A DNA stretch of 64,000 bases. Origin: Dactylococcopsis salina PCC 8305. Lineage in GTDB: Bacteria; Cyanobacteriota; Cyanobacteriia; Cyanobacteriales; Rubidibacteraceae. The notes under the pieces are model-generated. The model was not told where the DNA came from. It worked only from the letters and a program-made list of their open reading frames with translations, and made no database searches. Positions 43,013 through 46,987 of the stretch are shown here, in pieces; the first letter of the stretch is position 1, and each line of letters starts with the position of its first letter. Where the stretch lies: the NCBI RefSeq assembly GCF_000317615.1, contig NC_019780.1:3059840-3123839 (forward strand), read 5' to 3'. A program made the translations under genes and the position numbers.

Positions 43013-46000
43013 TTACTGATCACTGTCCATCACCGCTTGACGATCAAGCAACACTAAATCTCGTAATTGTTCAGTATCCAATTGGGTTAACCAATCTTCA
43101 CCTGCATCAACGGTTTGTTCAGCTAACTGTTTCTTACTCTCTATCATCTCATTAATGCGCTCTTCTAATGTTCCCGTACAAATAAATTTATGCACCTGTA
43201 CATTTTGTTTTTGTCCAATGCGAAATGCCCGATCGGTGGCTTGATTTTCTACGGCTGGATTCCACCAACGATCGACATGAAACACATGATTGGCGCGAGT
43301 TAAGTTTAATCCTGTTCCACCTGCTTTAATGGAAAGAATAAAAATCGGAGGTGCATCGGGATCATTTTGAAATTGATCCACCATTGCTTCTCGTTGTTGT
43401 TTACGAGTCGCACCATAAAGGAAGGGAATATTGCAGTGAAAATGTTGTTCTAAATAGGCTTTAAGTTGTTTTCCCCATTCTGCAAATTGAGTAAAAATTA
43501 AAGCTCGATCGTTTTCTGCGGTTAACTCTTCCAACATCTCAGTTAATCGTAATAATTTACCCGATCGTTGCGGTGTAATCAACTGTTTTTCCTTCTGTAA
43601 TAAAGCAGGATGATTGCATAACTGTTTCAGTTTCACCAACAGGGTTAAAATCTTACCGTGACGTTTAATTCCTTCCGCCGCTTCAATGTCTTTTAATGCT
43701 TTCTCGACAATCTCCTGATACAATTGCGCTTGTTCTTGGGATAATCCACAATAAACATTCATCTCCTGTTTTTCGGGTAAATCTTGGATGATTGTTCGAT
43801 CGGTTTTTACCCGTCGTAAAATAAACGGTTGAACTAAAGAACGTAGCGTTTGTAAAGAATCTCGATCGTTATATTTCTCAATGGGAGTCGCAAAGCGCCG
43901 TTGAAAAAATTGTTGTGATCCTAAATAACCAGGGTTCAAAAAATCAAGAATCGACCATAATTCCGACAAACGATTTTCTAACGGAGTTCCCGTTAAAGCA
44001 ATCCGAAAATTTGCCTCTAATTCTCGCACCGCTTTCGACTGTTTCGCTTGCGGATTTTTAATGTTTTGTGCTTCATCTAAAATCACCGCTTCCCATGACA
44101 CATTTTTCAGAGTCGTTGCGTCTCTTTGTGCTAAGGCATAGCTGGTAATAACTAAATCATAGCCTTGAACTTGTTTAACAAATGGTTTCCCTTTTTTTCG
44201 TTTCTCTCCATGATGAACCAGACTGGAAAAATTACGAGAAAACTTTGCCACTTCTCGTTCCCAATTTCCTAAAACTGAAGTTGGACAAACCAAGAGAGTT
44301 GGCGCATTTAGTTCCTCTTTTTCCTTAAGATGTAACAGTAGCGCGATCGTCTGGATTGTATTGTGACAGATGATATTATTAGCGATAAAGTTATGATGTT
44401 CGGCGATTTCAAAATCATAAACCCAACCCTCATAATTGATTTCCTCAATTGATTCAATTCGAGAGTAAAATAATTGTTCTTCCCTTTCCTTCACCAGAGT
44501 AGAAACAGATGCTTCTTCAAATTGAGAACTTTGATTGCTTTGATTTTCGGTTTCCCAACCCAGATAACGACTCAAAATTCTTGCTGAGTTGCCAGCAAAA
44601 CTTCCCGCATAATATGTTCTCTCACGATTTCCACCATCAGTTACACAATTTGGTTGTTGAGACACTTTTAGCCAGATACCAAAACGTTTTAGTAACACCG
44701 AGAGTTGTTTCATTACCATCAAAGAATCACTCGCAAATTCTATACTTCCTGTTTCCTCATTTACTGAACCTTTAGCCTTAAAATAGTGACACAGAAAGTA
44801 ACTCACTCCTTCTAAGTCAGCATTCATAATTAAGTTTGGAATTACTTGATCCTGAGAGTTCAAAGATAGTTCCTTAGCCATTTGCCAAGCGATCAACTCG
44901 ACTAATTCCAGATCAACTGATTTTCCTTCCCAAGAATACTTAGCAGGAACTGCCACATAATCTCCCACTTGTAACTGATTCGTCCATCCTTGAGAAGTTA
45001 ATAATTTATGTTGTTGAGTAATGGTGATGGTTTCCCCATCTTGTAAGCGAATTTTGCGTAACTTTTCCTGAACCTGCTGCCGATACAGTCGAGTAATTAA
45101 AGCGGGAACAATTTTGTTAGTAGAATGATCGATCGAATTCACCCACAAAGATTGAGAAGGTTGCGCCCAAACCCCTTCCCCATCCTCAATGGTTTCAATA
45201 CCAAATTCCTCCCAAATTTTTTCCGCCGTCCATAAATTACCATTCAGAAAAATCAGAGTCTCAGGAGAAACACATTTTCCTAAACCCATATCATCCGCTA
45301 AACATCCCCCTAAACCCCATTTTTGTAAAAACGCCAGCCAGCTAACGCCTCGCGCTTGATAGGGACGTAAATCACCGCAGAAGTCTTGAGGAGTTGCAAC
45401 AGGGGTTAAAGATTGATTCCCACTTAAATTTGTAATCAATTCTTGCAGCGCACCAGAGGCTTCAAAATCCACAATCGGAAGTTTTCCCATCGTCTGACTT
45501 TCCCCACTGGTAAGTCTCACCGCATCTTCCACAGAAAGATTCATTTCCGCATCGCTACCCTTGAGTAAGGTTTGCGCCGCTTTCACATCACTGGGTTGTA
45601 AAGCTAACCATTTGCCATTGACTTCCACTAGAGGAGATTGTTGATCTAATAACTGCTTAAATTCTTGAGGAGAGAGGGTTTCCTCATCAACGGCTAACTC
45701 CCACTTATAATTTAATAAACTCTGTAGCCCCAGTTTTTGCCCTTTTTTAGGCGCTTGTGCTTTCACCTTCACCCCTAAACGTCTTTCTCCGCTTCCAGGG
45801 GCTAAACCAGGGGGTAAAATGACACCAAAGCCATTTTCTGATAAACGCCAGGCACTCGCGCGAATAAACTCATAGGCTTGAATCGGATCAAGGGAACAAC
45901 CAGTGGGTGTAGAATGTTGTAAACTGTCGTGGATGGTGGGATATAATCGCAACGCTAACCCTAATCCTTGTAGTAAGGTTTCTTGAGGTTGCTTGATTGT

Positions 46001-46987
46001 CTTCCCGTCTTTTATGATTTCATCTGTGGCGGTATTCCAGATCGTTTCTGCGTCGAGAAAGTTCTCTTCATCGTCACGAGATTGTAAGCCATATTCTAGA
46101 TACCAATTTTCGTTACTTTCAGAAGGGGGAAGCAAACGAAAACAAGGACGAAAGGGTTTATGAACGATCGTTTCGAGGTAATTTTTCCCTAAATAATTTT
46201 CTACTGGTGCGATCCAAATTTTTAACGCCTTTTCTAAACGACGCAAACTGACTTCATCTGTGGAGAAACTGGAATCATCGCTAGAAAGCGCCAGAAACCA
46301 TTGTTTGAGAAGAGGAGTGGTAACGGGAGGAAAAGCAGGAGTAGAACTGTCACGAATACGGGTATTGATAACAGCGCTGAGAAAGTCGATAACGATCGCT
46401 TCTGGGGAAAGGTTAAAGTTGTAAGAACGACAACTTTCTGGGATATGTTGGGCAAAAGTTTGTAAACGTTCTTGATCTATGGGAGCATCAAATAAAGGCT
46501 GCCAAGCGGTTATGGCTTTTCCTTGAGGTTGAACCTCCAATTGTGGTAACAGCTTCGATCGAGCTAACAGTTGATCACTCCAACGGAAAAGATGTGACCA
46601 AAATTTGATACTATCGCTTTCTGTGGTAGTGGATAACAACGGAAAAAGCGACGCAATGGGGAGACGATATCCCCAAACCTGCCAAGTTTGAAAAGACACC
46701 TTTTCTGGCGATTGGGGAGTCTGTTGCGACAAAAGAGGAAGGACAGATTTTTTCTTAATTTCTTCCGTTGGAAGCGTCAAAGATTGGCTGCTGTAATTCG
46801 TGAGTTGGTCACGGGAAATTTGCTGTTGGACTAACAGATTACTCAGTTCACTTTCACTGAGGAGAAAGGGATGATCTTGGGGAAGGTCTGGTTTTAAGAT
46901 TCCTTCACAACTCCGCCAAGTTTCTCCCCAAATAAAAAACGTCTGTTCTTGTGATGATGACAGCCAAATTCCGTGTAACTTTGTCAT
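43013..46987 (-). CDS. SNF2-family helicase interrupted by an intein
   Basis: The 1324-residue precursor contains a 305-residue intein (residues 572-876); removing it leaves a 1019-residue bacterial SNF2 helicase. The first ~500 residues form the helicase-associated N-terminal region with [20 protein letters not shown]. The motor begins [32 protein letters not shown]|T (Walker A, split by the intein), [40 protein letters not shown], then [19 protein letters not shown] and [20 protein letters not shown]. All motor motifs look intact. Such proteins translocate on DNA; their physiological role in cyanobacteria is unclear. Activity requires protein splicing. Confidence 0.93.
   Translation of the reverse strand: [1324 protein letters not shown]
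44360..45274 (-). other. Intein in the Walker A site of the SNF2 helicase
   Basis: The intein starts with Cys in [15 protein letters not shown] (block A). Block B is [20 protein letters not shown] followed by VGDYVAVPA. Block F is [20 protein letters not shown], and it ends IICHN before Thr+1 (block G). All residues needed for protein splicing (Cys1, block B His, terminal His-Asn, Thr+1) are present. The middle has weak traces of a LAGLIDADG endonuclease ([25 protein letters not shown]), but I see no intact catalytic acidic motifs, so homing is probably lost while splicing persists. Confidence 0.92.

Follow-up and report, generated by a model that had tools for sequence, protein, structure and literature searches.

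Inteins of P-loops, degenerate homing domains, and inteins of Snf2 helicases are all described in published work (PMC5874633, PMC8966425, PMC11219805), and insertion into the P-loop is known as a habit of these elements (PMC5874633). The mini-intein of Pyrococcus horikoshii (Pho) RadA is described as a P-loop insertion without a homing domain (PMC5790916); its host is an archaeal recombinase, and only a short loop is found at the former place of the endonuclease. The P. horikoshii VMA intein is reported to have both LAGLIDADG helices without acids, one of them partly truncated, and its endonuclease architecture is called retained (PMC8966425). The intein of the Deinococcus radiodurans Snf2 protein, a SNF2 helicase, is reported to splice (PMC11219805). 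According to the homing-cycle account, the endonuclease decays after fixation, and selection on the host protein maintains splicing (PMC8966425). The uptake of inteins by the sll1366 family of helicases is already on record, since the NCBIfam model of the family (NF058636) is named 'sll1366 family intein-prone helicase'. No title on an intein of the host genus of our locus was present among the literature matches listed; subscription journals were mostly outside the coverage, so this absence is unproven.

The window analyzed here is a stretch of 64,000 nucleotides from Dactylococcopsis salina PCC 8305, the genome of which was a single contig of 3,781,008 bases. This strain is a halophile, as is Halothece PCC 7418. 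A helicase gene of the sll1366 family with an intein was encoded in the window (Table 1); its product matched NF058636 with 724 bits (cut-off 550), and the Pfam domains of the host protein were SNF2-rel_dom, Helicase_C, and DUF3670. The inserted region matched Pfam Intein_splicing (E 3.3e-23) and comprised residues 572–876 of the precursor, i.e., exactly 305 codons, with the flanks ...GGCLADDMGLGK on the N side and TIQTIALL... on the C side. The Lys and Thr of the Walker A motif were split by the insertion (ADDMGLGK/C...HN/TIQTIALL). In the 26 empty-site relatives with a readable junction, K was followed by T in 25 cases and by S in one; the boundaries of the intein are real because K is directly joined to T or S in these relatives. 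The sequence-only reading had placed the intein at 44360–45274 within a SNF2 helicase, which was right to the base, and the insertion point it had given, between GLGK and T of the P-loop, was confirmed by the junctions and the empty-site relatives.

Table 1. Features of the intein-containing helicase gene (window coordinates)
Feature	Position	Strand	Description	Basis or remark
SNF2 helicase gene with intein	43013..46987	(-)	sll1366 family; precursor of 1,324 aa	ORF, Pfam, NCBIfam
N-extein	45275..46987	(-)	residues 1-571, ending in Walker A ...ADDMGLGK	junction reading, NCBIfam
Intein	44360..45274	(-)	305 aa, C1 ... HN	junction reading, Pfam, NCBIfam
Intein splicing domain, N half	44942..45274	(-)	residues 1-111; C1 and block B TITQQH	alignment, structure model
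Homing endonuclease remnant	44492..44941	(-)	residues 112-261; deletions and lost acids	right edge approximate
First LAGLIDADG helix	44861..44911	(-)	predicted at 122-138 (low confidence); acid-bearing end Lys or deleted	model, alignment
Second LAGLIDADG helix	44771..44815	(-)	predicted at 154-168 (low confidence); KAK in place of DAE of relatives	model, alignment
Intein splicing domain, C half	44360..44491	(-)	residues 262-305; block F VYD and HNF, block G ICHN	alignment, model
C-extein	43013..44359	(-)	starts with Walker A Thr (+1 nucleophile); SNF2 ATPase and Helicase_C; stop included	junction, Pfam

The terminal residues of a class 1 intein—C1, N305, and T+1—were found in the window intein, as were the Thr and His of block B (TITQQH), the Asp of block F (VYD), and the penultimate His (CHN). 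These splicing-block residues were common to the other 15 same-site copies, which agrees, as far as sequence can tell, with the earlier statement that the splicing residues are intact. Class 3 inteins are without Cys1 and carry Cys at position 4 of block F; in the window intein, Cys1 was present and F:4 was occupied by Asp, and the intein therefore belongs to class 1. In this, it differs from the D. radiodurans Snf2 intein, which, judging from the title of the 2010 paper by Brace et al., is reportedly of class 3. The AlphaFold2 model, for which two sequences were given, had block-mean pLDDT values of 72–91 over both splicing halves, with a confident Hint fold at intein residues 1–111 and 268–305. 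A Foldseek search gave 47 matches with E <= 0.001, and those among the matches listed were all inteins or intein-like; ranks 1 to 3 were homing-endonuclease VMA inteins. The Pho RadA intein was matched with a target TM-score of 0.76–0.80 and was also the best PDB sequence match of the window intein.

Thirteen of the 16 same-site copies were 466–474 aa in length; the reduced ones were the window copy (305 aa), that of genome G116 (265 aa), and that of a Pleurocapsa MAG (L069, 234 aa). In the window intein, Pfam LAGLIDADG_3 was found with E 8.7e-8 and 32.8 bits over only profile positions 4–54 of 82, whereas the nearest full-size copy (genome G002) reached 54.2 bits over positions 5–82. Motif 1 of the full-size copies was AWQ(I/V)AEG in 12 of 13, the other (G054) having AWQIAAG, with AAG at its end; motif 2 was YFDAE(G/S) in all 13 (DAEG in six and DAES in seven). 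Both catalytic acids were thus retained in 12 of the 13. The corresponding motifs of the window copy were AWQMAK, followed by a deletion, and YFKAKG, with Lys where the relatives bear the acid, and an alignment gap covered much of the first LAGLIDADG half. Neither an acid at each helix end nor two complete halves, as expected of an active LAGLIDADG homing endonuclease, was present. This is the exact form of what had been described from the sequence as a degraded homing domain with unrecognizable catalytic acids: neither acid remains, and a large part of one half is missing. The loss of homing endonuclease activity in the window copy is strongly supported by these missing acids and deletions. 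The deletion of much of one LAGLIDADG half also distinguishes the window intein from the P. horikoshii VMA intein, whose host is an archaeal VMA protein.

Over the remnant, most pLDDT values of the same two-sequence model were 25–46. The predicted elements, all of low confidence, were a helix at 122–138 and then a helix at 154–168, two strands, a helix, two strands, and a helix; they resemble a single LAGLIDADG helix and, after it, a complete half, with a confidence too low to serve as evidence. The remnant could have a role in folding or splicing because its frame is open and its identity to three full-size copies is 43–58%.

Two other copies showed endonuclease changes of their own. The full-size copy of G054 (L082:2622-4022) has Ala in place of the motif 1 acid, which may mark the beginning of endonuclease decay. 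In the copy of G116 (L090:2684-3478), the LAGLIDADG core is gone, and about 110 residues before the C-terminal splicing half align with the full-size copies.

Same-site copies were counted with the intein and 16 residues of its N-flank as a query, a match having to start in the flank and to run >100 residues into the intein. They were found in 15 of 386 cyanobacterial genomes, the window's included, and all 15 carriers were among the 120 genomes (of 386) with the helicase above the family cut-off; one further same-site copy was that of the Pleurocapsa MAG. The closest named loci by identity were cyanobacterial. The copies of the 14 further genomes and the MAG share with ours the host family, the site, and a homologous intein; 13 of the 16 keep a full-size homing domain, and the window copy is one of the three that do not. 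Within the genus, the intein was present in two of six species, and the other four had the helicase with an empty site. A comparison of relatives at the same site, as the sequence-only reading had suggested, shows a minority of carriers both among the 386 genomes and among the congeners.

The helicase tree included 26 empty-site relatives, 24 from one search and two from another; G023 and G010, whose loci were unmatched by the motif pattern, and genomes without a fetched locus were left out, and the tree was also without L070, L072, and L073. The intein tree contained three long rows (L069, the window genome G000, and G340), with a warning that two of them join. The three reduced copies stood apart from each other on both trees, and well-supported branches forced three changes of state. 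Three separate losses would be the natural reading, with the limit that a count of changes alone cannot separate loss from gain. The window copy and that of G002 were separated from all other copies with 100/100 support in the intein tree, their branches being 0.77 and 0.10 long. The helicase tree did not settle how G000, G002, and G003 branch relative to one another within the genus.

There was no clear sign that the intein had recently passed between the window species and G002: synonymous differences were found at 63 of 206 identical-residue codons in the intein and at 312 of 783 in the extein. They were thus somewhat fewer in the intein than in the extein (Fisher p 0.015), and the windowed synonymous difference had no dip centred on the insertion. 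Either vertical descent from long ago or an early exchange between members of the genus would agree with this pattern. A phage or plasmid carrier was considered and rejected: with the intein as a single-sequence query, viral contigs yielded no confirmed relative, phage records were without a match, and 72,556 plasmid records gave only two distant matches.

Six outgroup copies were used to polarize the positions at which the window copy differs from its nearest copy (G002), and the changes were counted as window-only to G002-only. The ratio was 38:6 in the homing region versus 10:14 in the splicing halves (Fisher p 2e-4). The contrast weakened under stricter counting. Restriction to the ungapped core 140–233 gave 18:4 (p 0.007). 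When the outgroup was enlarged to all 12 other full-size copies, the ratios were 36:9 for the whole homing region (p 0.008) and 17:5 for the ungapped core 140–233 (p 0.07). A recount of the splicing halves gave 12:13. Pairwise dN was about two times higher in the homing region (0.26–0.28) than in the splicing halves (0.12–0.13) by both NG86 and YN00. The NG86 dN/dS was 0.38 in the homing region versus 0.15 in the splicing halves, and 0.13 and 0.09 in the exteins, the value of 0.09 belonging to the C-extein. With YN00, which gave no estimate for several pairs, this contrast was almost gone because the values were 0.18 for the homing region (0.24 for its core) and 0.17 for the splicing halves. 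The splicing halves look constrained under either method. The counts suggest that change was concentrated in the homing domain, the strength of the contrast being method-dependent. The endonuclease probably changed faster in the window lineage, a conclusion supported more by the lost acids and deletions than by the ratios.

Taken together, we consider it about 90% probable that the window intein is of the ordinary class 1, cis-splicing type and has reached a late stage of the homing cycle, with a dead endonuclease and with splicing kept. The mechanism described for class 1 inteins matches its catalytic positions (PMC5222942, PMC4031507). With 305 residues between its Walker A Lys and Thr, the precursor should not bind ATP properly. 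By analogy with the RadA P-loop intein, cited as a precedent (PMC6195587), it would be inactive and without ATPase until splicing, a deficiency that should be expected of any P-loop intein precursor. Splicing would proceed via a thioester at Cys1, transfer to Thr+1, cyclization of Asn305, and an acyl shift, yielding the intact helicase. Because the Walker A Thr doubles as the +1 nucleophile, excision would restore the P-loop without a scar; Msm DnaBi1 is described as similarly economical, its P-loop Ser being one of the catalytic residues (PMC6195587).

The homing endonuclease would formerly have copied the intein into empty alleles and, in the window lineage, would have died by deletion and the loss of both catalytic acids. 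From its residues, the intein probably still splices, and its endonuclease presumably no longer cuts. Splicing would be kept because the helicase depends on it; the intein could be retained without any benefit, given that splicing is needed for the helicase and an intein is rarely removed precisely. We infer that this need is the reason for its persistence. A decayed endonuclease next to retained splicing residues is the state predicted by the homing-cycle account. At this one site, the cycle can be followed as a series: empty sites, 12 full-size copies with two acids, one full-size copy that lost a single acid, and three reduced copies. The window copy and that of G002 form a pair with a decayed and an apparently intact endonuclease within one genus.

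The sequence-only reading had also proposed a splicing-dependent switch, in which splicing waits for a signal—redox, salt, or a DNA substrate—and times the helicase activity, the remnant serving as a possible hinge. There are precedents for such control. In Pho RadA, the vestigial endonuclease loop is reported to be needed for splicing in the native exteins, and ssDNA speeds splicing (PMC5790916); splicing of Msm DnaBi1 is stopped by oxidation (PMC6195587); an N-extein Cys of the P. abyssi MoaA intein traps Cys1, and salt activates splicing in halophilic archaea (PMC10663303). The conditional splicing of Pho RadA was measured, while the window intein is known from its sequence alone. Candidate redox partners of Cys1 in the window protein were an N-extein Cys at -10 and Cys303, located before the terminal HN; C1 and Cys303 were the only Cys positions invariant among the 16 copies. 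However, Cys -10 was also found in the empty-site relatives whose motif was read and is therefore a feature of the helicase. The Cys at -35, kept in the other 15 copies, was replaced by Ser in the window copy, from which Cys108, present in 13 of 16 copies, was also absent. No charge signature was found in the splicing domain: its net charge per residue was -0.071 in the window copy, within the range of -0.084 to -0.019 of the 16 copies, so a salt adaptation was rejected. Although YN00 did not show the remnant as clearly relaxed, most window-only changes fell in it, and in four of the six species within the genus, the helicase lacks the insertion. The proposal is thus left without support, and a conditional switch appears unlikely. 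Its more specific form, in which the remnant is now a hinge or sensor and completion of the Walker A motif depends on redox, salt, or DNA binding as in archaeal RadA, is a little more doubtful still. If the remnant did control splicing, the helicase would join the P-loop motors in which an endonuclease loop has been repurposed, here as a bacterial case.

It is very improbable that the intein is splicing-dead, with the helicase lost in this strain and its gene becoming a pseudogene. The window copy is unlike all other copies at some positions, the Ser at -35 among them, but all 1,324 codons are open, the splicing residues are complete, the splicing halves are not accelerated relative to G002 (10:14 or 12:13), and the C-extein, 87% identical to that of G002, has the low dN/dS given above. 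That the homing endonuclease is still active through some unusual chemistry is hardly credible: one LAGLIDADG half is still recognizable at 32.8 bits, but both acid positions are lost, much of one half is deleted, and the profile score is well below the 54.2 bits of G002.

The only two matches in the plasmid records were inteins of an SNF2-related protein from Arthrobacter caoxuetaonis and an AAA family ATPase from Miltoncostaea oceani. Both (L098:2322-5489 and L099:3760-6519) were inserted as GK/C...HN/T in a Walker A-like motif. They differ from the window intein in having other ATPase hosts, in belonging to Actinomycetota, and in an identity to it of 32–37%. Since these two plasmid inteins sit at GK/T, this type of intein occurs at the same motif in different ATPases, which suggests spread between the P-loops of different motors.

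Several other inteins were found in the genome of D. salina PCC 8305. A second Walker A intein (G000:C1:832500-836500, L110) was located in a DnaB frame, with the start GRPSMGK/CLGKGTK... and the end IIVHN/S. Intein-domain matches were also found in frames passing the cut-offs of GyrB, DnaX, adenosylcobalamin-dependent ribonucleotide reductase, and ThyX, at loci 3257000-3263500, 2707000-2711500, 2559000-2566500, and 1449000-1453000 of contig C1, making this genome intein-rich; the GyrB frame contained three intein-domain stretches. Short intein-domain matches at 2653235 and 2786645 may represent a split DnaE. An intein-like frame of 1106 aa was identified at G000:C1:2283000-2287500 (L100:2044-4500); its C-terminal part weakly matched a UDP-xylose synthase model (44.6 bits, cut-off 294), and its host may be an unusual one with no part in DNA metabolism. 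Similar matches were also obtained for frames of about 1,100 aa in G003, G006, and G009.
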